Below, one piece after another: positions 16,123 to 34,057 of a DNA stretch of 64,000 bases. The stretch is from Natronococcus sp. AD-5 (GTDB lineage Archaea; Halobacteriota; Halobacteria; Halobacteriales; Natrialbaceae). Both the position numbers and the translations under genes were made by a program. The stretch lies in the NCBI RefSeq assembly GCF_030734285.1, contig NZ_CP132295.1, forward strand, positions 558,001 to 622,000, given 5' to 3'. The notes beneath the pieces were generated by a model. That model was not told the DNA's origin. It saw only the letters and a program-made list of their open reading frames with translations, and ran no database searches. The number at the start of each line of letters is the position of its first letter. Position 1 is the first letter of the stretch.

Positions 16123-16274
16123 GTTACCCCACGAGTTTGGTCTTTTCAGGCAGTAATGAGACAAACACGACGGAACGACCGTCCACACCGAAGTTTCAAT
16201 CTTTTTCGAGATGATGGCGGTCTCATTCTCAATGAAACGACCAAGTGGAACCAAGTACGAAGGCGTGGGGTAAC
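16123..16274. repeat. Nested inverted-repeat element, copy 1 (core orientation A)
   Basis: Outer arms GTTACCCCAC (16123-16132) and GTGGGGTAAC (16265-16274) are perfect inverted repeats. Inside lies a 111-bp core (16136-16246) bounded by TTTGGTCTTTTC and a degenerate partner (GAAACGACCAAG). The same core lies reversed in copy 2 at 28131-28284, and copy 3 (34015-34057) has no core. Downstream flank is shared with copy 2 up to leader hairpin 5. No coding capacity. Confidence 0.8.
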
Positions 16275-16313
16275 TCTGCCAGACCGATCAGCGTCTGCAC
16301 GAACGCACCGCAC

Positions 16314-16347
16314 GTGGTGTTGTTCACACCCTCGAGAGGGATGGAGG
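16314..16347 (+). promoter_or_regulatory. Leader hairpin copy 5
   Basis: GTGGTGTTGTTCACA, then CCCTC-ga-GAGGG, then ATGGAGG, 9 bases before ATG 16357. About 40 bases separate it from the inverted-repeat element. Confidence 0.75.
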
Positions 16348-16356
16348 TTTTCACAG

Positions 16357-16914
16357 ATGTCACGAGCAGACGAGACGACAGCACAGCCAGCAGAGACACC
16401 CGATGAAGCGCAGTCCATCAGTGAGACGCCGCCACTTCCACGGCGGTTTCTCGCGACTGCCAGCGGACCGGTCACCCGGATCACTGACTACGGTGACGAA
16501 ACGACCGAGCGTGTTCGCGCCGACATCTCAATCGAGCACTCCATCGAGACACTCGAAGAGTTCACCACGTTCTGGGGCTTCCGCGATCTCCGCAGCTGGA
16601 AGCAAGCGGCTCTCAAGGCTCTTCTCGAGAGACAGGAACCCGACGCTGTGACGTACGCCGTCAACGAGGACGACCTCGAAGCGTGGGACGTCACGGTCGA
16701 CGGACGTATTGAAGCGTTCGCAGGGCTTGTCGAGACGATGGCCGACTACACAGGACGAGATCCTTCTTGTCGAGATACAATCCCTCACCGGATTGCAAGC
16801 CGAATCAACGCGCTCACCGATGGTCGCCAGACGACCGACGATGTTCTCAAGGAATTCGCTGACGAACTTTCCCGGGCAGAACTGTGGGGCATGGAGCGCA
16901 CCTCGCTCTTCTGA
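16357..16914 (+). CDS. Unknown acidic protein headed by leader hairpin 5, 3' end possibly shifted
   Basis: 185 residues beginning MSRADETTAQPAE. The first 60 are disordered. About 60-170 is helical (IEHSIETLEEFTTFWGFRDLRSWKQAAL...). Near the stop another frame reads LALLNVKHAHHESIEQLTATLARTLSDD and ends TAA at 16998-17000, overlapping the next ATG (TAATG). So the original gene may have run to 17000 and lost its tail to a one-base shift near 16895. Family not recognised; the start is shared with the small ORF at 27651, a sign of shuffling. Confidence 0.6.
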   Translation: MSRADETTAQPAETPDEAQSISETPPLPRRFLATASGPVTRITDYGDETTERVRADISIEHSIETLEEFTTFWGFRDLRSWKQAALKALLERQEPDAVTYAVNEDDLEAWDVTVDGRIEAFAGLVETMADYTGRDPSCRDTIPHRIASRINALTDGRQTTDDVLKEFADELSRAELWGMERTSLF

Positions 16915-16999
16915 ACGTCAAACACGCCCACCACGAGTCGATCGAGCAGTTGACCGCAACGCTTGCTCGCACTCTCAGTGACGACGGGGGTGAGGAGTA

Positions 17000-17464
17000 A
17001 TGAGCGAGCAGTCGATCAAACTTGGTGACGTCTGTTTGGATCTCGCACAAGGGCGACCAGTGCACGTGGTCACCGATACTGGCCAAATCGTAGCTGAGTG
17101 GTCCGAGGCAAATAACTACAATTTGCTAGATAATTATGGAAACTCACGCTTCGACACAGCCGAAGACGATCGCGTGTTCGATGTCGTCTACTGTTCGAGC
17201 CTGAAGTCCAGGCCCTCGAAAACCTATGCATATCCGGAGTCGCGGCTTGGCCGCATCGAGAGCGAGGCAGCCGATGCTGGCCGCCAGGTTGCCGACCGCG
17301 TGGTCGTCGCTGTTCTTGAAGAGCTGTTCGAACGAGCAGCCACGGACGACGATGGAGCCGTGACCGTCCTCGAGCGCTATGCAACTGACGTGGGATATGC
17401 GGACGAAGCTGCTGAAGCGCGCGAACTGGCTGAGATCGACCGGATCATCGGAGGTGAGGTCTGA
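17000..17464 (+). CDS. Unknown acidic protein of the 16-18 kb operon
   Basis: 154 residues. N-terminal beta-rich part (IKLGDVCLDLAQGRPVHVVTDTGQIVAEW) and a helical C-terminal half (QVADRVVVAVLEELFERAATDD...). The N-terminus resembles a small barrel, but I do not recognise a family. The ATG overlaps a TAA upstream and its TGA overlaps the next ATG (TGATG at 17462-17466), so it is an internal operon gene. Confidence 0.65.
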   Translation: MSEQSIKLGDVCLDLAQGRPVHVVTDTGQIVAEWSEANNYNLLDNYGNSRFDTAEDDRVFDVVYCSSLKSRPSKTYAYPESRLGRIESEAADAGRQVADRVVVAVLEELFERAATDDDGAVTVLERYATDVGYADEAAEARELAEIDRIIGGEV

Positions 17465-17808
17465 TGGTGGCAGATCTACTAACATACATTGACGGCGCAG
17501 ACGCAGCCGACTGGACGCTCACCGAGTCGCAAGTCTGGGGGCTTCGTCAGGGCGTGCAGGCGGCAGTCGAACGTGGTGACGAGAGCTTGTCGCTTCCATC
17601 GTCGACACTCTCCGCCGAGCGGTGGCACCACTGGGGAATCGGCATCTCTGTCTGGCTCCACGAGAGTGGTGTTGTCATCCTCCAGAATGGCGAGGAAACG
17701 ATCGTGACCGACGTCTCGATGCTCGAACACGTCTCAGGGGTGTTGGCTGGAGCCCACGGGAAGATCGGCCGCGTGACGCGGATTAACCCAGATAGAGGTG
17801 ACGAGTGA
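17464..17808 (+). CDS. Unknown protein of the 16-18 kb operon
   Basis: 114 residues. WTLTESQVWGLRQGVQAAVERGDESLSLP then WHHWGIGISVWLHESGVVILQNGEETIVTD and SMLEHVSGVLAGAHGKIGRVTRI. A beta-sandwich-like middle with a C-terminal helix. A homologue of its last 28 residues is fused to a thioesterase fragment at 26260-26439. Coupled on both sides by one-base overlaps. Function unknown. Confidence 0.65.
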   Translation: MVADLLTYIDGADAADWTLTESQVWGLRQGVQAAVERGDESLSLPSSTLSAERWHHWGIGISVWLHESGVVILQNGEETIVTDVSMLEHVSGVLAGAHGKIGRVTRINPDRGDE

Positions 17809-18188
17809 TGGCGATCGTCGACACTGAAAAGCGGTATACTGGTGCGTTCGACACGGTGAAGTGTCCTGTCTGTGGCTCCGACGAATGGACACACCTTGTC
17901 TATCAGGGCGTTTTCTGTGCGGCCTGCAACACTCGGTGTACGCTACGTGAACCGTCTGGCGACCAAGGCTTTATCGCTGAGTTCGACGGCAAATACACGT
18001 GGTCCGTAGAAGAGGCTGAGCCGATTCCCGAGACTGACGAGTACGGCGCTCTCGCGTCGGGTAAGTAGCTTGGGACCGAGTCTCGTGGCTACGATCGCTA
18101 CTGGTTTTCGGCGTATGCAGCCCACGTCGATGGTCACGAGAGCGAGTGGGAGCCAGCGTGGGATCGAGACAGTGAACGCAGAGGTTGA
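17808..18188 (+). pseudogene. Zinc-ribbon protein truncated by an in-frame TAG
   Basis: 86 codons (ATG 17808 to TAG 18066-18068), then the same frame continues LGTESRGYDRYWFSAYAAH...EWEPAWDRDSERRG to TGA 18188. The intact relative at 27749-28153 reads GKWLGTE at this point, so the TAG replaces TGG (Trp). Ribbon motifs CPVCGSDEW and FCAACNTRC are present. The truncated product would still fold the ribbon. Last gene of the operon. Confidence 0.8.
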
Positions 18189-18249
18189 CTAGAGCTCAAT
18201 CAGACCGAAAACAACCAGTGACAGCACTGGATACCCAGTTCCCTGTTCG

Positions 18250-18282
18250 GTGGTGTTGTTGCCCCCTCGAGAGGGGTGGAGG
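18250..18282 (+). promoter_or_regulatory. Leader hairpin copy 6
   Basis: TGGTGTTGTTGC, then CCCCTC-ga-GAGGGG, then TGGAGG, 9 bases before ATG 18292. One of the best-paired copies. The gene it served is now destroyed by an IS. Confidence 0.75.
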
Positions 18283-18291
18283 TTTTTCCAG

Positions 18292-19156
18292 ATGATAGAT
18301 CGACCCGAGAGGTACTGTCTATAGTAAACATTAGAAATAATTGCTCATTTTGGGAATAGTGAGTTGATCAAGAGCGGTATCGATCGCTGTTGTCAGCTCA
18401 GAAAGCGAGTCGAAGAATCGATTGCTAAGTGCTGATTGTAGCTGTCTCCAGCACTCTTCGACTGGATTGAGTTCCGGTGAATACGCCAGTAACGTAACGA
18501 AGGCAAGGTCGTCACGGGCCGCCAGGTCCGTGACGGCCGACGCCTGGAAATACGGCGCTCCATCCAACACGATAATCAAGTTGTCTTCGAACTCTTTGCA
18601 TAATGCGAGAATGAAATCTGACGGTGGACTCGAACCGACTGAAGAAAACGTTGCGACCTCACTCGAGGATTTCGGTGCCGACGTGAGTCATCGCGACGCC
18701 GAAATGCGTCTTGACTGACCCGCTGCGAGCGAGTTCGGCGTCGACGACCGCGTCGAAGTTCGGTACTCGGAGGCCGGCAACATGGACTAGGCATCGCTGT
18801 TCGCGGATACAGCCGACGACCAGCAGACGCTAACGGGCGAGGACGCCAGCGCCAGTTCCTCTTCGATTCGCCTGGTGAGAACAGTGATTGAGCCCTCCGA
18901 GAGCACCCACAACGGCGAACGAAAGGTCACATATCCAGACCCGAGAACATGCATACTCGCGTTAGCCGCAGTGACTCCCGATCCGCTAGTCAAAGGCGGA
19001 TACACCCATGGTGATCTGTGTTCCCGCTGCGAGGCAGCGGTGTTGGCCGGACGATTCAATGAAGAGGGAGAGCAGTTTCTCGAGTGCGCAGCCAGTGGGC
19101 GAACGCTCACACCTGCTATCATTATGTTCACGCCGTCTCGCAGTAGTGAGTCATGA
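18292..19156 (+). pseudogene. Degenerate copy of the zinc-ribbon gene at 32858, split by an IS630 fragment
   Basis: Starts MIDRPER, matching MSDRPE at 32858. It is interrupted from about 18310 by IS630 sequence and resumes near 18624 with LEPTEENVATSLEDFGADVSHR. Stops follow at TGA 18716-18718 and TAG 18788-18790 (CAG in the intact copy). A frame change then leads to STHNGERKVT...LAAVTPDPLV.GGYTHGDLCSRCEAAVLAGR. Last Cys pair of the ribbon is lost. Clearly non-functional. Confidence 0.8.
18331..18612 (-). pseudogene. IS630-family transposase, C-terminal fragment
   Basis: Minus-strand frame ...DFILALCKEFEDNLIIVLDGAPYF, then LAYSPELNPVEECWRQLQSAL, to TAA 18331. The LDGAP Asp and the PELNPVEECW Glu are the last two residues of the DDE triad of IS630/Tc1-like transposases. 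The N-terminal two thirds, including the first Asp, are missing; the break joins the host gene near 18613-18624. Usual length is about 340 residues. Confidence 0.75.
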
Positions 19157-19989
19157 GCACATATAGGATTCTAACCGCTCTCAGCGGCACTCATTCATCG
19201 AGACCTGTTCTCTAATCCAAGCTTCCAGATCAATTCATTTCACAATTTGTGAGGTTATGCATAACACTAACATATATCTACACTGAAAAAGAATGTGTCC
19301 CACACCAAGCTGGGACGTCACGAACAGCACCTTGAACCAACCTACCCCATCGCTCCCGGAATTGATGGGCACTGGCAGGCGCCTGCTCATGCTTCTGTGA
19401 TCGCTTTGCGACCACATCCACGCGGTTCGGTACGCGGATCCGGCCAGCAGCGCACCGATAGGACTTTGCAGACCACGACGACACTATGGACTGGTGTACT
19501 GTCGCAACGCAATGCTTGAGGTCGGAAGGAAGCGGTTCTAAGCACTCCTTTATGAGTGATGTGAGAAATTCGAGATCAACGTGACGAGATACAACCTCTA
19601 GAGATCGCGCTACTTCTCGAGCAAACCACGAGTCACCTCGAGTGCTGGGGATCCGTGCTAAGACTGTGATAGTCTGACTATCGATCTCTGTTTCGTGCTT
19701 TACCAACCAACATCAAAGCGAGTTGGAATGGAAACGAAGCTCACTTCGAGAGATCTTTGTCAGTATCTTGGGGATCATTACGAACCAGAAACTAAATTCG
19801 TCTATCATTTCGACGGACGAGTGTCAGGACTGGCGGTTTGTTTGACTCGAATGTCACGCCTTTTGTACATCCGCACGAGCGTAGACTCTCATCTTCTTGT
19901 TCCTTGCCTCTCACACCGGTTAGGAAGAACCGAAAATGGCACTGAGTCGCGTGGTCTGAGATTGTTAGACGGCAGATCGAAGTGCAGTC
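19157..19989. other. Region without a clear gene; possible degenerate remnant on the minus strand
   Basis: A minus-strand frame at 19278-19706 (142 codons) reads MVKHETEIDSQTITVLARIP...FAREVARSLEVVSRHVDLEFLTSLIKECLEPLP, which looks like a protein at first and then becomes Arg/Gln-rich. It may be the worn end of a transposase, but I cannot name the family. 19707-19989 shows nothing convincing. Confidence 0.3.
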
Positions 19990-20565
19990 TCAGAGCTGTA
20001 CCATCGCATCAAGGATTCTGTTAACGAACTCGTCGTTCGTAATATCGCCGTCCAGGAACTCCCGCAGCCATGCGACGTCAAGGAAGAACGCGAACACCCG
20101 GTTTTTGTGCTCGTCAAGGAGGGTGAATTTGATCTCCTTGAGTTCTGCGAGGAACTCCTCGGCATCACGAATTCCACGGGCCAGACCGGGTGCAAGAGCT
20201 CGAAGCTCTTCGGCCAGTTCATCGCGATCGTCCGTCAGCAACATCACGCGTACGTTGAGTTTCTGTTTGCGGTATGTAACCTCCTTCACCTTAATAACAT
20301 CGCTATCGATCTGAAAGGCGTCGCGATCGAATCCGGGGATCTCCTTCTTCTCGTTGTTCTTATCATTCTTTTTGTTATCCTGTTTGTTGTCTTTCTTCTC
20401 GTTCTTCTCGGTCTTTTCGCCCTTTTTGTTGTCCTTCGTGTCGTTCTTGTCGTCTTTCTCGTCATCGGTCTGCGTCTTGCTCTTCTGATTAATGCTACTA
20501 GCACAGCCAGCCAGCACGGTTGCAAACGCGGTGCCACTGCCGAGGAGGATCTTTCGTCGCTCCAT
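19990..20565 (-). CDS. Secreted lipoprotein with Lys/Asp/Asn-rich linker
   Basis: 191 residues. MERRKILLGSGTAFATVLAGC carries twin arginines and a lipobox (LAGC, Cys 21), so Tat export and lipid anchoring are likely. Residues 26-75 are a repetitive linker of K, D, N, E and Q, unusually lysine-rich for a halophile. The remaining 110 residues are a compact alpha/beta domain (FQIDSDVIKVKEVTYRKQKLNVRVML...). Function unknown; surface protein. Upstream region is AT-rich. Confidence 0.75.
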   Translation of the reverse strand: MERRKILLGSGTAFATVLAGCASSINQKSKTQTDDEKDDKNDTKDNKKGEKTEKNEKKDNKQDNKKNDKNNEKKEIPGFDRDAFQIDSDVIKVKEVTYRKQKLNVRVMLLTDDRDELAEELRALAPGLARGIRDAEEFLAELKEIKFTLLDEHKNRVFAFFLDVAWLREFLDGDITNDEFVNRILDAMVQL

Positions 20566-20897
20566 ATTTTGCTACCCTATACCGATCGATATCAATAATT
20601 ACCTCCTACGAAAATATCGCTGTTCTCAGATAATGAGCCGACTCACTAATCAATTTCTAATACTGCTGGTCCTGTGAGCATCTTCCAGTAGTCACGCTGG
20701 TGCTTCAGTTAATCATAACCTTACAGCCATAGCCAAACTGGGAATGCATCGAAAGGAGCCGTGAAGTATGTCTACCACCTATCGTTCCCATACCCTCACA
20801 TTGCTCCCTAACGGGAACGAACGATGGTTTCTTAGTTGAAACGCAAAGCGTTAGTGCTTACTGTAAAGTTCGATGGGTGAGTCCCTCAGATAACATA
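20566..20897. other. Intergenic, no gene seen
   Basis: AT-rich near 20575-20640, probably containing the promoter of the lipoprotein gene (minus strand). The rest up to the winged-helix remnant has no supported feature. Confidence 0.4.
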
Positions 20898-21251
20898 TCA
20901 CTCGTTCTTGAAAACCTCAGCAGTCTCTTCAGCCAGGTCCTGATCTCGATATGAGCGTCCCTTTGTCCAGTAACACAGTGGATTACATGATGGCGACCCG
21001 AAGTCGTCGATGTGGTCGTACTTGTTTCGATGCTCAAGTGCTGACCGTCCAAGCGACGTGATCTCATACAGCCCAGACCGTTCGGCCGGACCGATCTTGC
21101 GAACAAGGCCGTAGTCCTCGAGCACCGGCAGTCTCGTGTGGATGTTCTTGCGGTTCTTGTAGGTGGAAGCAGCGAGGTTGGTCGCGATGTTGCGTCCCTT
21201 GTCGTCAAGTTCTTCGGGTATCAGAAAGTCGGTTGGTTGTCGTAGCCTCGT
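20898..21251 (-). pseudogene. Winged-helix regulator with lost start codon
   Basis: Paralogue of the gene at 8661-8930. The frame reads (T)RLRQPTDFLIPEELDDKGRN...IHTRLPVLEDYGLVRKIGPAERSG, then a longer tail rich in charged residues to TGA 20898. The codon in place of ATG is ACG (21249-21251) and a TAA lies six bases upstream, so no normal start remains. A GTG inside (VLEDYG) would give only the wing. Probably silent. Confidence 0.7.
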
Positions 21252-21936
21252 GAATTAACACGGATTTCTAATGTGGAATCTGCGAATATTTAGATTTTCC
21301 ACTGGGAACTATACTCTGTATGAGCCTAAACACCAACGCAGTCTAACGGACCCGATACTGATATCCTCACAGAATTAGCAACTCTCAAGCCTGAAAACCA
21401 CCCGAAGAGGATATCTTCAGGGGTCGATCCTCCCGCAGGGAGCCGACGTCACTGGAAGCCGATTCATCTCGCGGACCGCATTCATCGCTACGAGAGATTC
21501 ACACTTAGGTATACACTGTCTACGGCTCTTGATTCGTAACCATTCAGGGAACTGGATCAGAAGCTCGTCATTGCCAAGTCAGCCAAGCAGCTGCCACCGT
21601 AATCGGGTTTCCGTATCATCTTCCCCATCGTTAGTCACCACTCTGTGGCGAAACTCTCATATTCACTGTATTCGGTGATCTCCAGATCATAGAACAGTGA
21701 TACTCAACGATAACTAACTCTAAACCGCCAATCGGGTGGGCGGGTTATATCCGAGCATCGGAGTCGCAAGGCCCGACACACAAAGGTAGAGGCACTAAAT
21801 GAGCGTCAGTTCGAACTGTTACTCAAGGGCGCTCGCAATCTCGATGAACTGGATATTTTTAGTGTCTGAACTAGTCGAGTTCTTCAATTAAATCGATCAG
21901 AAACACGTTAGAGCGGTTAAGCCTATTATTTGGAAG
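21252..21936. other. Gene-free stretch
   Basis: About 680 bases of mixed composition with stops in all frames. No TATA box, repeat or fold stood out. Confidence 0.4.
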
Positions 21937-22509
21937 CTATGAGTCTTGGTTTCTGATCCGAACCATCTCCGGGTAGAGACATACATGTTGATTTTCATAC
22001 CCCTCGCTGTCAAGTAGCACTGTCGAGTCAAATGAAAGGTTTGATTCATTATCGTATATTCCTTTATGATCTTCAATAATAACGGACGATGGTTTTTCGA
22101 TGGTAAGTAACGGATCTGTCTCGACGACGACCAGTGATGGTTTCTGGGCCGTAAGCTCTCGCGCTGAGGTTTCTATTCTGTTCGGATCCTGTATGGCAAT
22201 TACACCTGGTCGCTTGATCAAAATATTCCCATTTCGAATCGTGATTTCCTCAGGCCGCACCTCTATTGGCAACTCGGGTGGAGGTGTCTCTTTCAGAGAA
22301 TCCCACGATCTATACTCACTAGATTTTTCTGATGATTCTCCGGCAGCATAGAAAAATAGGAGATAAAAAGCGACAATACCGCCCCATATTAGTAGAAATA
22401 TTATTATTACTATTGTATTAGGGCGTCTATTTGGTATTAATGATTCAACACTATTTTCCACAGAAAATAACAAAAATGTGAGCTTGAGTACTATTATTTT
22501 CCCTCCCAT
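21937..22509 (-). CDS. AT-rich single-pass membrane protein
   Basis: 190 residues. One strong membrane segment, about residues 32-57 (IVIIIFLLIWGGIVAFYLLFF). The outer part has repeated short beta-strand phrases (EEITIRNGNILI, GVIAIQ, SLVVVE, SSVIIED) suggesting a small beta-helix or beta-sandwich. Base composition is much more AT-rich than its neighbours, a sign of transfer from a different source. Family not recognised. Confidence 0.55.
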   Translation of the reverse strand: MGGKIIVLKLTFLLFSVENSVESLIPNRRPNTIVIIIFLLIWGGIVAFYLLFFYAAGESSEKSSEYRSWDSLKETPPPELPIEVRPEEITIRNGNILIKRPGVIAIQDPNRIETSARELTAQKPSLVVVETDPLLTIEKPSSVIIEDHKGIYDNESNLSFDSTVLLDSEGYENQHVCLYPEMVRIRNQDS

Positions 22510-22770
22510 TTAAATGGTTAATTATAGATGATCAGTATTAAGATTTATTTAGGACAGAATATGATTACCATTTGTTCATAAAAATGTTATAGTATTTAAT
22601 CTCTACTAATAATTTCCCCTTTATTAGACTTGATAGTGGTATCTTGGTGATACTATGTTTCATGTGCTGTTCCCCTTATCCACCACCTCCGTGATCTCGA
22701 GGCGGTGGGACCGGTGGTGATCGTGGTCGGATCATATTGGTAGATTCGGCGCGTGAGTCGGTCAGAACTG

Positions 22771-23720
22771 CTACCAGAATTTCGCCGCCACCCAATCACG
22801 ACGACCTTCGAACCAGATCCCACGATCGGCCGCGATCCGCGGGTAATCGATCGCCTCGGCGCTCGAGCTCTCGTAGAAGCCGTTTTTCTGCCACGGGTCG
22901 CGAACCTCGAGCCAACTCCTGAACTCGCCGAGTAAGCGGATATCCGTGCCGCGCCTGTCGCCGTCGAGGCTGTAATGATGCTACGGATCGACGACCTCGA
23001 GCGAGACGTGCATCGAGTGGTCGTCCGCGTCGTCGGATACTGCGCCGTCGTCGACACTCGTATCCACGATCGCGACTGTGACCGAGCTTATATCGGGAAG
23101 TGTCGAGAGGTCGTCGACGCCCATCGCCTCGCACGAATCTCGCAACGGTGTCTCGACCATGTCACCGTCAAACGCCACGAGATTGGGTTCGGGAACGCCG
23201 TCACCGAATGTATTCAGTAGTGTCGATTGCACGATGCCGAACGACGGCCAGACCCTCACTTTCGGGCGTGACTGATTCGGCGAATTCACGCTCTCGGTTG
23301 ACTTCGATGCTTTCGATGTAGCTGAGTGCCTACAGTCCGTCATTGTGAGCCGCTCGTGATTCCGAGCGTCGAGATCCTCTGGCGACGTGACGAGTATCGT
23401 CTGTCCCGTGCCATCGTGGCGGCTTCCCGAGATCTGGAAGGTGTCGTCATAATGCTCGAGTTCGTCCTTGAGCGCATCGAGGTTCTCTGCACGCTCGTCG
23501 GAATTGCTGCCCTCGACCGCGAAATCCAACTTGGACGGTCGTTGCTGTGGAGCACCACGTCGTCGGGCGTCTGCCAGCCGCAGATTCCGGGCAACGTTAC
23601 GGGAGTGAGACTCGCGAGTGGTGCCATCACGAGGCCAGCGCCGACGCTGTACAATACCTCTCGATGATAACCAGTTTCGTGAATCAATTCACGTGCAGTT
23701 TGCCAGTCTAAGTTTATCAC
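22771..23720 (-). pseudogene. Unrecognised conserved gene, broken by frameshift and TAG codons
   Basis: N-terminal segment MINLDWQTARELIHETGYHREVLYSVG...VVLHSND (23720 to about 23545), then a one-base shift into LDFAVEGSNSDERAENLDALKDELEHYDD...TGQTILVTSPEDLDARNHERL... to EVVDP, then TAG 22981-22983. The frame continues HHYSLDGDRRGTDIRLL...EVRDPWQKNGFYES...GIWFEGRRDWVAAKFW to TAG 22771. Two lesions in an otherwise coherent protein of about 315 residues. Function unknown. Confidence 0.6.
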
Positions 23721-26553: not shown

Positions 26554-26587
26554 GTAGTGTTGTTGCCTCCTCGAGAGGGGTGGAGGG
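26554..26587 (+). promoter_or_regulatory. Leader hairpin copy 7
   Basis: GTAGTGTTGTTGC, then CTCCTC-ga-GAGGGG (one G-U pair), then TGGAGGG, 9 bases before ATG 26597. Confidence 0.75.
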
Positions 26588-26596
26588 TTTGAACCG

Positions 26597-26917: not shown

Positions 26918-27090
26918 TGAGTGAGTCCACTGGCTGGCCTGACGACCGAGTGCAGGCCGAACTCGAAGCAGTTCTGGCCAATCTGCGAACGCTCGAGGAG
27001 CACCTGGCCGAGCCGTTGACCCTCGCAGACTCGATCGTCGAACTCGAGGCGACGCGTGTGGTGTACGAACACGTGGTTATGGAGGCCTGA
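26917..27090 (+). CDS. 57-residue acidic helical protein
   Basis: MSESTGWPDDRVQAELEAVL, then a Leu/Glu-rich helix to the end; it looks like a helical dimer. Start overlaps the previous stop (TGATG); the next gene begins 3 bases after its TGA. Expressed as part of the operon by position. No family recognised. Confidence 0.55.
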   Translation: MSESTGWPDDRVQAELEAVLANLRTLEEHLAEPLTLADSIVELEATRVVYEHVVMEA

Positions 27091-27092
27091 CG

Positions 27093-27257
27093 ATGCCCGA
27101 GTGTTCGAACTGTGACAGTCACGTCACAGAACAGTACAAGCGGGTGTTTGCGGACAACACCGGAACGCTCCACGCCTGTCCGAACTGCCGAAACCAGCGC
27201 GCGAGATTATCGGGAGCAGGGGCTGGGCTCCCGGAGAAGATGACTCATGGCAACTAA
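27093..27257 (+). CDS. 54-residue zinc-finger protein (DUF7563-like)
   Basis: MPECSNCDSHVTEQYKRVFA, then LHACPNCRNQRARL. CxxC (4-7) and CxxC (about 32-35) make one zinc site. The opening MPxCxxCxSHVT is the pattern of a small haloarchaeal family (DUF7563 from memory). The last 11 bases overlap the HalOD1 gene. Function not known. Confidence 0.65.
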   Translation: MPECSNCDSHVTEQYKRVFADNTGTLHACPNCRNQRARLSGAGAGLPEKMTHGN

Positions 27258-27501
27258 GAAATTCGAATACGAGTGGTCGGAAACGCCGCCGAGCGTCGCA
27301 ATTATCGAGGCCATCGCGAGGCTCGAAAACTGTCCGTCAACCAAGCTGGTACCGACCCACGGGATCGTCCTGTCCGAGACGATCGACCCCGAGGCGCTCG
27401 ATCGACTCGTCACAACCGGCGAATCAGTGTCGGTCACGTTCTCGGTCGACAAGTACGACGTCACACTCACCGAGAAGATGCTGATCGTTCGCGCGACCTA
27501 A
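27247..27501 (+). CDS. HalOD1 output-domain protein
   Basis: 84 residues. PPSVAIIEAIARLENCPSTKL, then IDPEALDRLVTTG and VSVTFSVDKYDVTLTEKMLIV, is the HalOD1 fold: helix, IDPxALxxL, then a beta-hairpin. Overlaps the zinc-finger gene by 11 bases. Same family as 11314-11574 but clearly diverged. A stand-alone signalling output module in a cassette operon. Confidence 0.75.
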   Translation: MATKKFEYEWSETPPSVAIIEAIARLENCPSTKLVPTHGIVLSETIDPEALDRLVTTGESVSVTFSVDKYDVTLTEKMLIVRAT

Positions 27502-27610
27502 GACATGATCACTCCATCAGCGGCGAGTCGTACGAACGGTGTGCTCTCTAACCGTCGATTGTACCACCTGGGCTCTGGGTAGTTGCTTGAACCCCTGGTG
27601 CGATCGATCG

Positions 27611-27642
27611 TGGTGTTGTTCGCCCCCAGAGAGGGGTGAGGG
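27611..27642 (+). promoter_or_regulatory. Leader hairpin copy 8
   Basis: TGGTGTTGTTCGC, then CCCC-agag-AGGGGTGAGGG, 8 bases before ATG 27651. Confidence 0.75.
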
Positions 27643-27650
27643 TTTCATAG

Positions 27651-27749
27651 ATGTCTCACGCAGACGGGACGACAGCAGCACAGTCACCGAATACTCGGCT
27701 CATTAATGCCACAATCGCGACGATCGCCAACAACAGAGGTGAGCAGTGA
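27651..27749 (+). CDS. 32-residue ORF, apparently a deleted version of a larger cassette gene
   Basis: MSHADGTTAAQSPNTRLINATIATIANN...GEQ. Its first residues resemble the protein at 16357 (MSRADETTAQPAE), and RLINATIATI resembles RLIDAGIATI at 32571. So it looks like a fusion of two cassette genes with an internal deletion. Its TGA overlaps the next ATG (TGATG, 27747-27751), which may keep it useful for coupling. Confidence 0.45.
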   Translation: MSHADGTTAAQSPNTRLINATIATIANNRGEQ

Positions 27750-28153
27750 TGCCGCTCGTCAAGACCGAAGAGCGGTATACTGGTGCCTTCGACGTGGTGG
27801 TATGTCCGGTCTGTGGCTCCGACGAGTGGGTGCATCTTGTTTTCCAAGGTGTGTTTTGCAAGACGTGCAACACACGATGCACACTTCGAGAACCCGCAGG
27901 TGATCAGGGGTTCATCGCCGAGTTCGACAGCACCTACACTTGGTCGGTCGATGGGGCTGTCCCAATCCCTGACACTGACGAGTACGGGCCACGTGCGTCG
28001 GGAAAGTGGCTCGGAACAGAGGCACATGGATACGACCGGTACTGGTTTTCGGCGTATGAAGACTACGTTTACGACGACTGTGAATGGGAGCCAGCGTGGG
28101 ATCGAGAGCCAGAGAACGAGGACGAGCGTCGTTACCCCACAGACAAGGGGTAA
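27749..28153 (+). CDS. Zinc-ribbon protein, intact relative of 17808-18188
   Basis: 134 residues. MPLVKTEERYTGAFDVVVCPVCGSDEW, then FCKTCNTRC give one zinc ribbon (about 19-50). A WSVDGAVPIPDTDEYGPRASGKW stretch and an aromatic acidic tail (YDRYWFSAYEDYVYDD) follow. The last codons (YPTDKG, TAA) lie inside the left arm of the inverted-repeat element, so that element's arm is coding here. Function unknown. Confidence 0.7.
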   Translation: MPLVKTEERYTGAFDVVVCPVCGSDEWVHLVFQGVFCKTCNTRCTLREPAGDQGFIAEFDSTYTWSVDGAVPIPDTDEYGPRASGKWLGTEAHGYDRYWFSAYEDYVYDDCEWEPAWDREPENEDERRYPTDKG

Positions 28154-28284
28154 ATCTGAATTTGGTCTTTTCCATTGAGAATGAGACCACCATCATCTCG
28201 AAAAAGATTGAAACTTCAGTGTGGACGGTCGTTCTGTCGTGCTTGTCTCATTACTGCCTGAAAAGACCAAATCCGTGGGGTAAC
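28131..28284. repeat. Nested inverted-repeat element, copy 2 (core orientation B)
   Basis: Outer arms GTTACCCCAC (28131-28140) and GTGGGGTAAC (28275-28284). Core 28161-28271 (111 bp) is bounded by perfect TTTGGTCTTTTC / GAAAAGACCAAA arms. Read in reverse complement the core matches copy 1 with few differences, while the sequence right of the outer arm matches copy 1 in the same direction. So the core is inverted relative to its flank. Confidence 0.8.
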
Positions 28285-28322
28285 TCCGCCAGACCGGCCA
28301 GCGTCCGCACAACCGTGCGCAG

Positions 28323-28356
28323 GTGGTGTTGCTCACCCTCTGAGAGGGGTGGAGGG
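28323..28356 (+). promoter_or_regulatory. Leader hairpin copy 9
   Basis: GTGGTGTTGCTCA, then CCCTC-tga-GAGGGG, then TGGAGGG. The nearest recognisable ATG is 28398, farther than usual; a GTG at 28360 starts a 16-codon frame instead. Confidence 0.7.
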
Positions 28357-28397
28357 CGCGTGTACAAGCAATACGTGCTCTCCAGGACGAGATCACC

Positions 28398-28553
28398 ATG
28401 CCACTCTTAGAAGTATACGAGCGCACGTTCGATGAAGATGTCCTTCTCCCTCGACAGACTTGAGTCGAGGACGGGGAGAGCGAGGAACAGACACCATCCC
28501 AAGACGATCCCAGTGCGAGCATCAACGACGAGGAGGGACGGTCCCTATTATGA
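28398..28553 (+). pseudogene. Small acidic gene with an in-frame TGA
   Basis: MPLLEVYERTFDEDVLLPRQT, then TGA 28461-28463, then VEDGESEEQTPSQDDPSAS to TGA 28553. The acidic second half is halophile-like and its final stop overlaps the ATG of the next gene (ATGA), so the frame was probably one gene of 51 codons. The original residue at the stop is unknown. Confidence 0.45.
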
Positions 28554-28855
28554 CTGAACTCCGGATCGCTACTGATGATCTCCTCATGAGGGTTCACGCC
28601 GAGGGGACGATCACCGCACAGTTCGCAGCCAGTATCGGGTGCAGAGCCGAGCCAGACGTCCAGACGCTCAGCTTTCCGAGAGGACACTATGGTTTTCTTG
28701 GTACCTACGCTGGTGCACCAGGATTGTCTCTCGATTTTCACCGCGACTATGTTGTTGAGACTGCCGGCGAATCGATCCGCCGTGACGCGCTCACTATCCT
28801 CAGGGAGCTTACTGCTGAGGTCTGGGACAATCGACACCGAGTGGGGTCGGGGTGA
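28550..28855 (+). CDS. Unknown small protein
   Basis: 101 residues from ATG 28550, chosen because it overlaps the upstream stop and the residues before it are basic and atypical. MTELRIATDDLLMRVHAEGT, then LSFPRGHYGFLGTYAGAPGL and a long C-terminal helix. No cysteine site and no membrane segment. Family not recognised. Followed after 7 bases by a zinc-finger gene. Confidence 0.6.
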   Translation: MTELRIATDDLLMRVHAEGTITAQFAASIGCRAEPDVQTLSFPRGHYGFLGTYAGAPGLSLDFHRDYVVETAGESIRRDALTILRELTAEVWDNRHRVGSG

Positions 28856-28862
28856 GCGAACG

Positions 28863-29036
28863 GTGGCACGCTCCCACTGCGCTGAGTGTGGATACGAGGG
28901 GCCAAGAGATGGACCGCTGCCTCAGCGTGGGTCGGACGTCATTCCGATTTACGAGTGTCCGAACTGTGGGGACGTTGCCGCACTCGGCTGCTCATGTGAC
29001 GATCCAGCACGCCATCGACCTGCCACCGCTCCGTGA
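28863..29036 (+). CDS. 57-residue double-knuckle zinc protein
   Basis: GTG start. CAEC (6-9), CPNC (about 35-38) and CSC (about 46-48), so at least one zinc ribbon. GTG is used because no ATG is available in frame and the previous gene ends 7 bases upstream. Role unknown. Confidence 0.55.
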   Translation: MARSHCAECGYEGPRDGPLPQRGSDVIPIYECPNCGDVAALGCSCDDPARHRPATAP

Positions 29037-29046
29037 CCTCTGTTCA

Positions 29047-29080
29047 GTAGTGTTGATTCTCCCCAGAGAGGGGTAGAGGG
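29047..29080 (+). promoter_or_regulatory. Leader hairpin copy 10
   Basis: GTAGTGTTGATTCT, then CCCC-agag-AGGGG, then TAGAGGG. The next start, GTG 29096, is 15 bases away. Confidence 0.7.
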
Positions 29081-29095
29081 ACAACGCGACGACTC

Positions 29096-29338
29096 GTGTC
29101 TAGCGAGTTTCCCAGTGAGGAAAATCACATGCAAATGCCGCTTCCAGCGCCCGCAAACGAGTCGCCTCACCACACCACGATGCCGGTTCCTCGAGTGCGG
29201 TGCTCGGGGGCGTCTTGGTCGCACGAGCCCGCGTTGCTCACAATCCGGTCGGCATCCCCACTCGTGATGGAGTGCCCGATCTGTCAACTCACTATCCGGG
29301 TCGAATCCTCCGATAACGGCGGTGGTCACGATGGGTAA
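29096..29338 (+). CDS. Small cysteine-containing protein
   Basis: 80 residues from GTG 29096 (first residues MSSE, like other MS- starts behind these hairpins); an ATG at 29129 is an alternative. CPIC near residue 61-64 and an earlier lone Cys; a single incomplete knuckle. TAA 29336-29338 overlaps the next gene by 8 bases. Unknown function. Confidence 0.5.
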   Translation: MSSEFPSEENHMQMPLPAPANESPHHTTMPVPRVRCSGASWSHEPALLTIRSASPLVMECPICQLTIRVESSDNGGGHDG

Positions 29339-29606
29339 TGGGAAAACCGAAGAAGAGATCCTCAAGGACCTTCGCGACGGTCGTCGACGAAACCGAGTAC
29401 GGACAGCACGCAACAGACTGTCTCAGCCTTCAAACGTGATTGATCGAGAGATGGATTCTTTCAAGATGGGTGGCGGTGACCGATGGAGTCACCGCTGCAC
29501 AGTATCGCAATTCTGCGAAGGAAGCAACACATATCTAGACAGGCGGTGGGGCAGAATACGTCTCAAGGCCTCACTCGGCAGATTTCGGATTGAGTCAGTC
29601 GTATAA
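29331..29606 (+). CDS. Small protein whose 3' end is cut by a MITE
   Basis: MGNGKTEEEILKDLRDGRRRNRVRTARNRL, a charged helical start, then KMGGGDRWSHRCTVSQFCEG. From 29542 the frame runs into the inserted element, so the last 20 or so residues are not original. Starts inside the previous gene (8-base overlap). Family not recognised. Confidence 0.45.
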   Translation: MGNGKTEEEILKDLRDGRRRNRVRTARNRLSQPSNVIDREMDSFKMGGGDRWSHRCTVSQFCEGSNTYLDRRWGRIRLKASLGRFRIESVV

Positions 29607-29716
29607 ACAGGAAGGAATCAGCGGATTTTCCCATTAGCCTCGGAGTAGAAAATTAGATCACCCGTAGAACTGAGATCAGTAAGTACAGAGCCTGTGAAGA
29701 CTTCTGCCCCACCGCC
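29542..29716. mobile_element. MITE-like element, 175 bp
   Basis: Perfect 15-bp terminal inverted repeats GGCGGTGGGGCAGAA (29542-29556) and TTCTGCCCCACCGCC (29702-29716), flanked by a 9-bp direct repeat atctagaca (29533-29541 and 29717-29725). No coding capacity, so it would have been moved by another element's transposase. It sits in the 3' end of a small gene. Confidence 0.8.
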
Positions 29717-29725
29717 ATCTAGACA

Positions 29726-30095
29726 GGTAGGAAAGAGGTAACGGCGAAAAACATGGATAAAGTGCCTCTGGCTGGTAACTATCGAATCAACAACAGCTGT
29801 CTAATCTCTAAATAGAGAGTATACAATATTTATAGATGATCTTTTTGATCTGTTAATTAGTTTGAGACAATCTCTGTCGCATCGAACGATCGGCCGCAAC
29901 ATCTCATTGTTTCCTCACAGAAGTCAACAGTCCAACCGTGCCGGAACTTGTCACCCGCAATAAGCCCTGCAGGCCTTGTTGAGGTCTCATTCTTCAGATG
30001 TGATTTTGGTTGAAACAGCTGTTACGTAGAAATGCGAACTGAACAGTACTCCGTGTTCGGTACATTTTATCTCGTTCCTTACTAACCTTTGAGAT
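29726..30095. other. AT-rich intergenic stretch
   Basis: No gene. ctctaaatagagagtatacaatatttatag (two words around 29806-29838) contains a short inverted repeat and TATA-like sequence. The promoter of the SHOCT gene is probably the ttttatc near 30065. Confidence 0.4.
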
Positions 30096-30608
30096 ATGGT
30101 TTCCCGCCACTGGCTGTATTTCGGTGGATTCGTAATCACTGGAATCCTGCTGATCGGTGCTACTCTGATGGGAATCGTGGACGGTCTGTCAGCCCTATCT
30201 GGTAGTGTACCTGCCAGTGAGGAGTTCATTCTGTTAGCAATGCTCGGGGAAGCCGCTGAATGGGTTATGATCGTACTTGTCCTCGGGTTATTCGCAGTGG
30301 TATTTCTCGCTGTGACAGTTATCTCTGTCCTCCGGACCGCGTCTCTTCCTCGCGACGATAGACTGGTCTCAATCGTCGAATGGGTTGAACGGAGGTACCC
30401 GGTTCTCCGTCGATTCGATGTCACGGAGAAGGTCAGCCCGACAAGTGAGGATCAACGACAGCAACTCAAAGATCAGTATATTTCCGGTGAGATCAGTGAC
30501 GCCGAATTTGAGCGGGAGATGGGGCAGCTGATGGATGACGCTACATCAAAGGAGAAGTCACAGTCTAGAACCGAGACGGCAATCGAAATCGACGATAAAT
30601 CACGATGA
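30096..30608 (+). CDS. SHOCT-domain membrane protein
   Basis: 170 residues. Two membrane helices, about 5-27 (WLYFGGFVITGILLIGATL) and 55-80 (WVMIVLVLGLFAVVFLAVTVI). The cytoplasmic tail ends in a SHOCT motif, QQLKDQYISGEISDAEFEREMGQL. SHOCT domains are short oligomerisation tails on many small haloarchaeal membrane proteins. Single gene; start at the first ATG before the first helix. Confidence 0.75.
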   Translation: MVSRHWLYFGGFVITGILLIGATLMGIVDGLSALSGSVPASEEFILLAMLGEAAEWVMIVLVLGLFAVVFLAVTVISVLRTASLPRDDRLVSIVEWVERRYPVLRRFDVTEKVSPTSEDQRQQLKDQYISGEISDAEFEREMGQLMDDATSKEKSQSRTETAIEIDDKSR

Positions 30609-30842
30609 CTATAGACTCTGTATTGGACGGTTCGCGGGTGGTCTTAACAAGGTATGCGATACTTTGAATCTCTCTTGCAATATAATAAACAAACCCATCG
30701 GTGCACGTGACGGGGTTGAACTCTCTGCCAATCGGGTCTGGTGCTCTCTGGTGAGGAGTTATCGGTCTGGCAAACACTCATGTCGTTGAATGAATGGATG
30801 CGGTTTTCCCACGATTGGCTGCAATAGAACCCGTCAACCGTG

Positions 30843-31136
30843 TCATTCGTCCGCCGATACCGGTTCGCCGTCTTCCATCTGCCATTCGAGTTCGACTTCT
30901 AACTCGGCCTCGTCATCGGTTACCTCGTACTCGACTTCCAGTTCGAAGTGCTCTGGAACCGCCACCATGAAACCGTTCTCTCCTTCAATGTCGATTGTCC
31001 CGTTCTCGACACCATCAGCGACTTCACGGAGGATCCCCGCACCCTCTGCCCGACTCATCACCCGCTCACCTTCACGTTCCGTCTCATCATCTGCCGATTC
31101 CGCTTCGGTCTCGGATTCTTGTTTGTCGTTTGCCAT
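30843..31136 (-). CDS. Amphi-Trp domain protein
   Basis: 97 residues. A disordered acidic N-terminus (about 1-26), then VMSRAEGAGILREVADGVENGTIDI and PEHFELEVEYEVTDDEAELEVELEW, the pattern of the haloarchaeal amphi-Trp domain (helix, then two amphipathic strands ending in Trp). Role not established. Own promoter at 31161-31168. Confidence 0.8.
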   Translation of the reverse strand: MANDKQESETEAESADDETEREGERVMSRAEGAGILREVADGVENGTIDIEGENGFMVAVPEHFELEVEYEVTDDEAELEVELEWQMEDGEPVSADE

Positions 31137-31160
31137 ACCGGGCCTACAACGGCTGCCAAT

Positions 31161-31168
31161 AAAATATC
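31161..31168 (-). promoter_or_regulatory. TATA box for the amphi-Trp gene
   Basis: Minus strand reads atatttta, 25-32 bases before ATG 31136; a leaderless or near-leaderless transcript is expected. Confidence 0.5.
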
Positions 31169-31431
31169 TCGGGCTTCATATCCGCCCAGTTTGATCGGCG
31201 GTAGTCACCACTTCCATCGAGGCATTACCGGAAGAATCCTTACTGTATTGAGTGGTAAGTCTATCTCCTACACTTATCGCTAGGAGTGCTTGACCTATCA
31301 TCTGTAGAGAATTGGAACAGAGCCGCCTTTCAATCCAATATCTAGTTTTACTTTCACTCCACTACCCGGAGATTAACTAGGGCAGGGATAAGAGCGGACA
31401 CTGACGACACACCGGAGAGTCACACGACACC

Positions 31432-32460
31432 ATGAACTACGACAATGACGACCGCTGGGAGTTCGTTCCCGAAGACGAAGGAAGTATTGCCCCCGATGCG
31501 ACCGACTCGAGGGCCGTCGACGACGGCAGCTACGAACGCGTCGACGACTCACTCGAAACCGATCACGTGGCGTATCCAGACGCTCCTAAACCAGCGTCCC
31601 ACGAGGATAAATCACCTGCTGAGAATCGGTGCGAGTGTGGCACGGAGATCGCTCACGATCGAACAAAGTGCGACTTCTGTCTCACGAACAGTCTCGACTA
31701 CGGTGATCTAGCGGTTGAACCCGACACCGAGCGCGAGCTCACTGGGCTGATTCACGTTCTCGTCGACGCGAAAACCGAGCACACCGCCATTAGCAAAGCC
31801 AAAGCCGTCTTCAAAGGACTGACTGGCAATCCCTTCACCACCTCTATCGACGGTATCGACGAGTGCGAAGTGATCGCCGATTTCGAGGGCGAGCTCGTGA
31901 CGCGATTCACTCGCGAATGGGGTCAGTTGCCTGGTGCCGCTGCCGTCGAGACGACTGAAGGACAGCGCCAGCTCGATATCATCCGTCAGAATGCCGGCCA
32001 CGACTACACTATAGCTGCTGAGGAGAGCACCGACAACACCGAGGAAAACCGACCGACGCTTGAGCCAGTGCTATTCGACGCCGAGGGAGAGCCGATCACT
32101 GACATCGAGGAGGTCGGCCAGCTTATCGCCGGCGGCACGCTCGAACGGACCAGTCCCACATGGGATACTGACGAATACCCACGACGTGACGATCCAACAC
32201 GCACCTGGATTGTGCCTGCGATTGCTCTCGAGCACGTGTCTCCACCGGATCACTCCGAGAGATTCCCTCGCGCGGGGCGAACTCGTCGCAATTTGAAGTG
32301 TCGATCGTGCGGTGAGTCGACGCGCCACAAATTCGGTGGCTTCGATGAAGTGCCAGTTCCAGAGATTCCCGACACGCCGATCTGGGAATGTATCAGGTGT
32401 CAGTCTCCCCGACACGGCCCGGATCCTGACAGTCCGAGAGGGGACACGCACCACCGGTGA
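31432..32460 (+). CDS. Two-ribbon acidic protein heading the 31-36 kb gene series
   Basis: 342 residues. N-terminus (1-60) is acidic and disordered. RCECGTEI...KCDFC (about 68-85) is the first cysteine site. The middle domain (about 100-200) has helices and strands without a known motif. CRSCGES...WECIRCQSP near the end is a C-terminal zinc ribbon. Similar haloarchaeal proteins have, as I recall, been labelled biosurfactant protein 1, a name that says little about function. It has no leader hairpin and is the first gene of the series. Confidence 0.6.
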   Translation: MNYDNDDRWEFVPEDEGSIAPDATDSRAVDDGSYERVDDSLETDHVAYPDAPKPASHEDKSPAENRCECGTEIAHDRTKCDFCLTNSLDYGDLAVEPDTERELTGLIHVLVDAKTEHTAISKAKAVFKGLTGNPFTTSIDGIDECEVIADFEGELVTRFTREWGQLPGAAAVETTEGQRQLDIIRQNAGHDYTIAAEESTDNTEENRPTLEPVLFDAEGEPITDIEEVGQLIAGGTLERTSPTWDTDEYPRRDDPTRTWIVPAIALEHVSPPDHSERFPRAGRTRRNLKCRSCGESTRHKFGGFDEVPVPEIPDTPIWECIRCQSPRHGPDPDSPRGDTHHR

Positions 32461-32528
32461 ACTAGGAGCCTGGATGTGCGAGACGCTCTCGCTGCACCAA
32501 GATGGTCGTCAGACCAGAGGCACCGTCT

Positions 32529-32564
32529 CGTGGTGTTGTTTCTCTCCTCAAGGGATGAGAGGAG
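32529..32564 (+). promoter_or_regulatory. Leader hairpin copy 11
   Basis: CGTGGTGTTGTTT, then CTCTC-ctcaagggat-GAGAG, then GAG, 6 bases before ATG 32571. A different sequence from the other copies but still a stem before the start. Confidence 0.65.
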
Positions 32565-32570
32565 TCCACG

Positions 32571-32780
32571 ATGTCAGATACCGACCAGATTGACGAGCCA
32601 CTGACGCCACAACAGCGCCTCGAGTCATCGAATAGCCGGCTCATTGATGCGGGAATCGCGACGATCACCGACATGGAGACACTTCAGGCGTGTGCCGCCT
32701 ACGAAAACCAGCACCAGCAACGCCTTCCGATCCTCGAACAGCTATCTCGACGAGCTGAAGAACTCCGCGAGGAATTGTGA
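32571..32780 (+). CDS. 69-residue helical protein
   Basis: MSDTDQIDEPLTPQQRLESS, then RLIDAGIATITDMETLQACAAYE and a Leu/Glu-rich helix (RLPILEQLSRRAEELREEL). A likely helical bundle or coiled coil. A shortened relative is the ORF at 27651. Start fixed by leader hairpin 11. Function unknown. Confidence 0.6.
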   Translation: MSDTDQIDEPLTPQQRLESSNSRLIDAGIATITDMETLQACAAYENQHQQRLPILEQLSRRAEELREEL

Positions 32781-32812
32781 CTGGTCCACCGGTCGCGATG
32801 TCCTCGAGCTCT

Positions 32813-32849
32813 GGGAGTGTTGTTTGCACCCTCCCAGAGGGGTGGAGGG
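32813..32849 (+). promoter_or_regulatory. Leader hairpin copy 12
   Basis: GGGAGTGTTGTTTGCA, then CCCTC-ccaga-GGGGTGGAGGG, 8 bases before ATG 32858. Confidence 0.7.
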
Positions 32850-32857
32850 TTTTACAG

Positions 32858-33409
32858 ATGTCAGATCGACCCGAGATTACGATCCAACAGCAGACAGCGT
32901 TCACCGACGATGGTGAACTTGAACCGACTGAAGAAAGCGTTGCGACCTCGCTCGAGGATTTCGGTGCTGACGTCAGCCATCGCGAGGTTGAAACACGACT
33001 CGATCGCCCCGTAGCCAGCGAGTTCGGCGTCGACGATCGCGTCGAAGTTCGGTACTCCGAGGTTGACGACACTGATCAGGCATCACTGTTCGCGGATACG
33101 GCTGATGACCAGCAGACGCTGATGGGCGAGGAAGCCAGCGCACAGTTCCTTTTCGATGCTCCCGGTGAGAACATGACTGATTCTTCCGAGAGCACCCACA
33201 ACGGCGAGCGAAAGGTCACATCTGCGGACGCAAAAACACGCATACTCGCGCTGGCCGCAGCGACTCCTGATCCACTCGTCGTAGGTGGATACACCCATGG
33301 TGATCCGTGTCCCCGCTGCGAGGTAGCGGTGTTGGCTGGACGAGTCGACGAAAACGGAGAGCAGTTTCTCGAGTGCGAGCGGTGCCTGTACCGTCCTACA
33401 AGCGGGTGA
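32858..33409 (+). CDS. Zinc-ribbon protein, intact parent of the pseudogene at 18292
   Basis: 183 residues. MSDRPEITIQQQTAFTD, then LEPTEESVATSLEDFGADVSHRE and VASEFGVDDRVEVRYSE in the first half. The C-terminal third carries GDPCPRCEVAVLAGRVDEN...FLECERCLYRP, a complete CxxC...CxxC ribbon. The middle has an acidic linker. Start fixed by the hairpin leader and by its paralogue. Not a family I can name. Confidence 0.7.
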   Translation: MSDRPEITIQQQTAFTDDGELEPTEESVATSLEDFGADVSHREVETRLDRPVASEFGVDDRVEVRYSEVDDTDQASLFADTADDQQTLMGEEASAQFLFDAPGENMTDSSESTHNGERKVTSADAKTRILALAAATPDPLVVGGYTHGDPCPRCEVAVLAGRVDENGEQFLECERCLYRPTSG

Positions 33410-33436
33410 AACGCCGAGTCTCCACTCACATCGCCC

Positions 33437-33469
33437 GGTGGTGTTGATCGCGCCTCAGAGGCATGGAGG
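33437..33469 (+). promoter_or_regulatory. Leader hairpin copy 13 (short stem)
   Basis: GGTGGTGTTGATCGC, then GCCT-cag-AGGC, then ATGGAGG. The next start is 31 bases away (33501). Stem sequence is different, pairing kept. Confidence 0.55.
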
Positions 33470-33500
33470 CGCTCGAAACAGAGCGCTTTCGGTGAGATCG

Positions 33501-33578
33501 ATGTTTTACGAAACCGACTTCCCAGAGACGAATCGCCACCGAACCGTCCTCGAAGCGCTCGAGAAGGAGCGATCCTAA
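33501..33578 (+). CDS. 25-residue ORF coupled to the next gene
   Basis: MFYETDFPETNRHRTVLEAL...ERS, ending in TAATG (33576-33580) that shares an A with the ATG of the next gene. Small, but the coupling and leader suggest translation. It may serve only to load ribosomes onto 33578. Confidence 0.4.
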   Translation: MFYETDFPETNRHRTVLEALEKERS

Positions 33579-33928
33579 TGGGTGCCGTGACGTTCGAGAC
33601 GCTTTCGTTCGGGGAGACTGCCGACGAGGCGTTCAGTAACGCCGTTGCGGACGCGAAGCATATGCACGGACACGCCGGGTACACGGGGACGGTCGCCGAG
33701 AAATCCTTGTTCGAAGTCATTCCCAAACAAGAGCATCATGGGAAGCAGAAACGTCGATACGCACACCAGCTGATCGAGGACAGTGATGAGCGGATCTGCC
33801 AGAAGTGGGGTCCCGCCGGAGCGATCAACTGCTCGGGAACGGCGGGCGCCAAGCGTTATCGCGAACAGCACGGGTTGAAAGGCAAGCACGGCGACGTCTG
33901 GCTCTTCTTCGGCTGGCCCTCCCACTGA
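33578..33928 (+). CDS. Unknown 116-residue protein
   Basis: MGAVTFETLSFGETADEAFSNAVADAKHMHGHAGYTGT..., then a basic middle (KQEHHGKQKRRYAHQL) and WGPAGAINCSGTAG...WLFFGW. Alpha/beta, less acidic than neighbours. Possibly phage- or plasmid-derived; family not named. Coupled to the 25-residue ORF by TAATG. Confidence 0.6.
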   Translation: MGAVTFETLSFGETADEAFSNAVADAKHMHGHAGYTGTVAEKSLFEVIPKQEHHGKQKRRYAHQLIEDSDERICQKWGPAGAINCSGTAGAKRYREQHGLKGKHGDVWLFFGWPSH

Positions 33929-33945
33929 TCCGACCCCTCGCATGC

Positions 33946-33981
33946 GGTTCTGTTGTTCCACCTCCCTTCAGGAGTGAGGAG
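33946..33981 (+). promoter_or_regulatory. Leader hairpin copy 14
   Basis: GGTTCTGTTGTTCCAC, then CTCC-cttca-GGAG, then TGAGGAG. It lies 115 bases before ATG 34096 because the inverted-repeat element copy 3 lies between. Confidence 0.6.
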
Positions 33982-34014
33982 ACTCGCGTTTCAGGCGTCA
34001 CCATCCCAGTCGTA

Positions 34015-34057
34015 GTTACCCCACGACCGCGGGATCTCTCCCGATTTGTGGGGTAAC
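34015..34057. repeat. Nested inverted-repeat element, copy 3 (no core)
   Basis: GTTACCCCAC (34015-34024) and GTGGGGTAAC (34048-34057) around 23 bases of unrelated sequence. Same outer arms as copies 1 and 2 but lacking the 111-bp core. Sits between leader hairpin 14 and the DUF6610-like gene. Confidence 0.75.

Follow-up and report, generated by a model that had tools for sequence, protein, structure and literature searches.

The Palindromes and Their Cores

The window, that is, the whole stretch of 64,000 nucleotides analysed here, is part of the contig C2 (1,023,156 bp) of a haloarchaeal genome of two contigs. At its two ends C2 carries an orc1/cdc6-like stretch and a parA-like gene, and the nearest annotated relatives of the window are plasmids of the Natrialbaceae, such as those of Natrinema and Natrononativus. 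Three pairs of inverted outer arms, GTTACCCCAC and GTGGGGTAAC, are present base-exact at 16123-16274, 28131-28284 and 34015-34057, just where the original prediction placed them. Copies 1 and 2 enclose a core, which is interpreted below as a MITE (a miniature transposon), and copy 3 is, also as predicted, an unoccupied palindrome. When up to one mismatch is allowed, GTTACCCCAC is matched 8 times, where 2.05 matches would be expected; 0 of 100 shuffles reach 8. The features of the three sites, with the strand where one applies, are as follows.

16123..16132, + strand: left arm of palindrome copy 1, GTTACCCCAC, exact match
16135..16136: left target duplication GT of copy 1 (2 bp; 22-bp spacer on restoration)
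16137..16244, + strand: putative MITE copy 1, 108 bp, end A (TTGGTCTTTTCAGGCAG) adjoining the left arm; absent in the orthologous Natrinema sites, ends align with an IS630-type element
16245..16246: right target duplication GT of copy 1 (from comparison of the 2-bp flanks)
16265..16274, - strand: right arm of palindrome copy 1, GTGGGGTAAC, exact match
28131..28140, + strand: left arm of palindrome copy 2, inside the end of ORF 27746-28153 (DUF7567), exact match
28160..28161: left target duplication AT of copy 2 (one AT in the empty Natrononativus site)
28162..28270, - strand: putative MITE copy 2, 109 bp, end A adjoining the right arm; absent in the orthologous site of Natrononativus amylolyticus
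28271..28272: right target duplication AT of copy 2 (from comparison of the 2-bp flanks)
28275..28284, - strand: right arm of palindrome copy 2, exact match
34015..34057: palindrome copy 3, unoccupied, 23-bp spacer (usual range 20-23); near-identical twin at C2:950087-950129
16315-16351, 18250-18286, 26554-26590, 27610-27646, 28323-28359, 29047-29083 and 32816-32852, + strand: leader hairpin copies

The core had been put at 111 bp; its presence stands, and its limits are refined to 16137-16244 (108 bp) and 28162-28270 (109 bp). Its reversal between copies 1 and 2 is borne out by an inverted match of 117 nt with 94% identity, formed by the cores together with one outer arm. The cores are off-centre, 4 nt from the left arm in copy 1 and 4 nt from the right arm in copy 2, and the same element end (A) points toward the near arm in both. 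The left arm of copy 2 does overlap the end of a zinc-ribbon gene, ORF 27746-28153, which matches Pfam DUF7567 and has CxxC motifs. Elsewhere on the replicon, at C2:52480-52584 (L003), a decayed palindrome contains a third copy of the core, and C2 has three unoccupied palindromes, window copy 3 included.

Several other repeats are found in this region. Palindrome copy 3 (L004, C2:592015) has its near-identical twin (L005, C2:950087) 358 kb off on the same replicon, and the twin adjoins a gene homologous to the neighbour of window copy 3 (DUF6610 in the window). The leader hairpin, GTGGTGTTGTT..CCCTC-GAGA-GGGGTGGAGG, occurs in the seven + strand copies listed above, at least some of which stand directly 5' of a small gene. 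The third core copy has a similar leader nearby, on the opposite strand. In addition, diverged paralogous gene segments of 75-85% identity pair 17794-18093 with 27735-28034 and 18620-19088 with 32909-33377, which suggests that the region grew through the duplication of small-gene modules.

The Palindrome and the Spb Protein Family

The palindrome GTTACCCCAC-N20-23-GTGGGGTAAC is widespread on plasmids of haloarchaea; of 392 genomes of the order, 42 have it. Thirty-five ORFs start exactly 1 nt from a palindrome, and those that were aligned represent one conserved protein of about 128 amino acids, for convenience called Spb here, whose gene in many cases has orc1/cdc6 in its neighbourhood and in some cases diverges from parA. 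The palindrome is found in 31 of 31 genomes having Spb at E<=1e-50, whereas of the other 361 genomes 11 have it (Fisher p = 4.8e-37, which overstates independence because the genomes are related). Distant relatives of Spb have palindromes with other arms, TGTACCCCACAA, CCTAACCCACA, TTAACCAACA and CTAACCAACA, just before their start codons; that is, the arms vary with the Spb subfamily, and the core element enters some of the other-arm palindromes too. At one locus (L263, read by eye) it lies ahead of an Spb-like reading frame.

Spb has no useful match in Pfam, NCBIfam or PHROGs. Its AlphaFold2 model (pLDDT 84.7) consists of a long helix and three strands, and a comparison with the PDB gave no convincing fold match: Foldseek had none at E<=0.001, and the best VIA Z was 2.7. 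A search for GTTACCCCAC as a published motif returned only literature whose titles are unrelated to haloarchaea. Judging from the fixed distance of 1 nt to the start codon, the covariation of arms and subfamilies and the co-occurrence, the palindrome would most probably serve Spb as its DNA site, that is, as an operator and perhaps also a partition or copy-control site. Like the partition or autoregulatory sites of plasmids (parS, or an operator with an adjacent small DNA-binding protein), it stands where a small gene begins, with orc1/cdc6 or parA nearby, and several further sites are present on the replicon; genetic linkage and co-occurrence suggest a role of this kind for Spb.

No full Spb gene is recognisable in the window genome. 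A frame at C2:1018758-1018886 (within 1441-1632 of L176), about 3 kb from an orc1-like gene, resembles only the C-terminal part of Spb and is possibly a remnant. As GTTACCCCAC sites are kept in this genome without a full Spb gene, they may be relics, or sites on which a diverged protein or another replicon acts.

The palindromes might, on the other hand, be those known from near the termini of IS605-type transposons or of PATEs, which are terminal-only remnants; in Haloquadratum, SMR-A repeats of a size similar to that of the core insert in such palindromes (PMC3119063). However, the palindromes here have 10-bp arms and 20-23-nt spacers and lie at Spb starts near orc1 or parA, and beside three sampled Spb loci there is no IS605-annotated gene, one of them having a gene annotated as "transposase" only, so that an IS605 or PATE origin is improbable.

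The Core as an Insertion

The original prediction had proposed a search of other genomes for palindromes without the core, and this yielded empty orthologous sites for both window copies. The copy-1 locus is present without the core on plasmids of Natrinema zhouii (two) and Natrinema sp. SYSU A 869, where the SWIM zinc-finger gene, the palindrome, the leader hairpin and the downstream gene are shared with the window and the spacers are 22, 21 and 21 bp. The copy-2 locus of Natrononativus amylolyticus has a 22-bp spacer with a single AT in place of the AT-core-AT of the window. When the core and one duplication are removed from the window copies, spacers of 22 bp (copy 1) and 23 bp (copy 2) are restored, and these fall within the range of 175 unique palindromes (peak at 22, most of 20-23 bp), among which outlier spacers of 130-134 bp include core-bearing sites. 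Similarly, an occupied site in the genome G365 restores to a 20-bp spacer, equal to that of its empty paralogue.

Identical 2-bp flanks accompany 16 of the 22 MITE or IS copies compared (p = 2.8e-15 at a chance of 1/16 each, although the copies are not all independent, L216 and L244 having common flanks); L257, being the same insertion as L226 in another record, is outside this set. The duplicated dinucleotides include GT, AT, AA, CA, CT and CC, among others, and the duplication usually begins 2 nt inside an arm, one exception being an IS copy (L268) with 5 nt. Matching 2-bp flanks are absent in six of the 22 copies, and for five of these decay or misplaced ends may be responsible. The sixth is an IS630-type copy (L269, G417:C5), whose left flank matches the site of another copy (L260) and whose right flank resembles the MITE site L216/L244, with the IS in the opposite orientation; its mixed flanks probably arose through recombination between insertion sites. 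The end that points to the near arm is A in both core-bearing window copies and in L215, and B in L003 and L226.

The MITEs are 107-109 bp long, non-coding and bounded by the terminal inverted repeats TTGGTC.../...GACCAA, and they show insertion polymorphism with target duplication, as seen in the empty orthologues and the 16 of 22 flank pairs. Four copies (L010, L013, L264 and L265) lie outside recognisable Spb-type sites and L008 is uncertain; L010 sits in a short palindrome, GTCGGGC-ATA-GCCCGAC (read by eye). A tandem pair of copies (L011/L227, G203:C112), with CG between them and at both sides, lies within AACCAAC-GT..AT-GTTGGTT near an orc1-like gene. Core matches of 23-27 bp in other genomes (L014-L016, L219-L222) were set aside as probably due to chance or coding similarity.

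Another way to read the sites is to regard arms and core as one mobile element having GTTACCCCAC as terminal repeats, the 43-bp palindrome being what an internal deletion leaves of it. In favour of this, the arms are inverted repeats without a mismatch, and small palindromic elements occur in haloarchaea (PMC3119063). However, the 42 genomes mentioned above have palindromes whose interiors of 20-23 bp are unrelated and which are linked in position to the start codon of Spb, conserved genes flank the orthologous sites, and no duplication surrounds the outer arms of copies 1-3, all of which makes such a composite element very unlikely. The least probable reading is the phase-variation switch, one of the two readings of the original prediction, in which everything that lies between the outer arms, or the core by itself, is turned round by a site-specific recombinase. 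In its favour, copies 1 and 2 lie in opposite directions with respect to the downstream flank that they share, and genes with leader hairpins lie directly downstream. Against it, the orthologous sites lack the core; if the core only were flipped, it could not pass from a place 4 nt off the left arm to one 4 nt off the right arm; flipping of the whole segment would reverse the spacers, which at both sites run as in other genera; the target duplications are present; and the spacer length varies from 20 to 24, unlike that of recombinase core sites. The other choice offered at the outset, a tiny element entering the palindrome in either direction, agrees with the empty orthologous sites, the 2-bp target duplications and the presence of both orientations in relatives. 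Independent insertions with target duplications had been named beforehand as evidence against a switch, and they are found here as GT in copy 1 and AT in copy 2. Given a symmetric target, an element that entered beside the left arm in copy 1 and beside the right arm in copy 2 appears to be inverted.

A Probable IS630-Type Partner

Elements of 1,115-1,116 bp occupy the same kind of palindrome in the genomes G417 and G383, the latter belonging to the genus of the window genome. They contain two ORFs joined by a -1 frameshift at an A7 run; ORF1 matches HTH_33 and HTH_32, and ORF2 matches DDE_3; the matches as a whole (PF13358, PF13592, PF13565 and PF01710) make up the domain set of the IS630 family. 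The ends A and B of the IS align with the ends A and B of the MITE, and the IS occupies the same position in the same palindrome. These two features make an element of the IS630 family the likely source of the transposase, and the MITE would be mobilised by it in trans. Complete or partial IS copies were found in GTTACCCCAC, GTTAACCAAC and CTTGTGCAACA palindromes; the occupied GTTAACCAAC palindromes (L215 and L268) and CTTGTGCAACA palindrome (L270) each hold a MITE or an IS. This range of arm types, together with the insertion before an Spb-like frame at L263, suggests that the sites of Spb are what the element hunts. Two points count against the scheme. Elements of the IS630 family as a rule insert at TA, whereas the dinucleotides duplicated here vary; among the IS copies, the one in G383 has TA, and two in G417 have CC and CA. 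In addition, no match to this IS630-type transposase at E<=1e-15 is present in the window genome, so that the MITE is probably static there now.

Comparison with Known Elements

Among known elements, the SMR-A repeats of Haloquadratum walsbyi (HqIRS42, HqIRS43 and HqIRS55) come closest to the MITE. They are about 110 bp long, have inverted termini and target IS605/PATE palindromes; they were reported to lack target duplications and to have ends unlike known transposons, and their mobilisation was called "enigmatic" (PMC3119063). Cases in which one repeat takes opposite orientations at one position were listed for this species under "SwitchRepeats" (PMC3119063). Compared by description, the MITE here is like SMR-A in its size of about 110 bp, its terminal inverted repeats, its non-coding nature and its preference for palindromes, whereas it differs in having 2-bp duplications, an IS630-type partner and plasmid palindromes of the Spb type as targets. 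Since two defining features of SMR-A, the lack of duplication and the lack of a related transposon, do not apply, the MITE is not assigned to SMR-A. As a suggestion, a 2-bp duplication could have been overlooked in the SMR-A study. A Haloquadratum genome (G421, 400 kb) contains repeats of 90-130 bp and gave no match to the IS630-type partner.

The MITE shares with those of the IS630/Tc1-mariner group its shortness, terminal inverted repeats matching a transposase-bearing element and a 2-bp duplication. It differs from the classical ones, which duplicate TA, in its varying dinucleotide and in its entry into a palindrome at an almost constant place. The res-site hunters Tn5053/Tn402 and the IS1111-attC elements insert at a fixed place in functional sites of other mobile elements. 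The MITE appears analogous to these in its fixed-place insertion, but its presumed transposase is a different one and its target is a palindrome of haloarchaeal plasmids.

Conclusions

As described above, the core is very probably a non-autonomous MITE that was inserted independently into two plasmid palindromes, with an IS630-type element as the putative mobiliser in trans and the palindrome as the putative site of Spb. The sequences show that the 107-109-bp MITE enters at a nearly fixed point, 2 nt inside an arm, in either orientation and with a 2-bp target duplication, and that an IS630-family element with matching ends occupies the same position; an IS630-type transposase would have moved the MITE in trans. 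The symmetric palindrome lets it enter beside either arm and so look inverted. A wider proposal is tentative and, in our judgement, somewhat more doubtful than probable: the IS630-type transposon and its MITEs would read the architecture of the Spb site (a hairpin or protein-bound DNA) and not one sequence, as is suggested by their almost constant point of entry into palindromes with GTTACCCCAC, GTTAACCAAC and CTTGTGCAACA arms, Spb and its palindromes would constitute an undescribed system of plasmid maintenance or control across haloarchaea, with a parasite of its own that hunts it, and mobilisation by an IS630-type element would solve the puzzle of SMR-A.

What was supposed to be a DNA switch is consequently described as a precisely targeted miniature transposon for which a likely transposase can be named, and such a transposase for palindrome-targeting repeats is the gap left by the Haloquadratum study (PMC3119063). 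A targeted MITE of this kind may explain the movement of a class of mobile repeats of about 110 bp. In addition, a widespread and unnamed family of plasmid proteins has a conserved palindrome, with which it co-occurs almost perfectly beside replication and partition genes, and Spb together with its palindrome offers a testable entry to the control of haloarchaeal megaplasmids.
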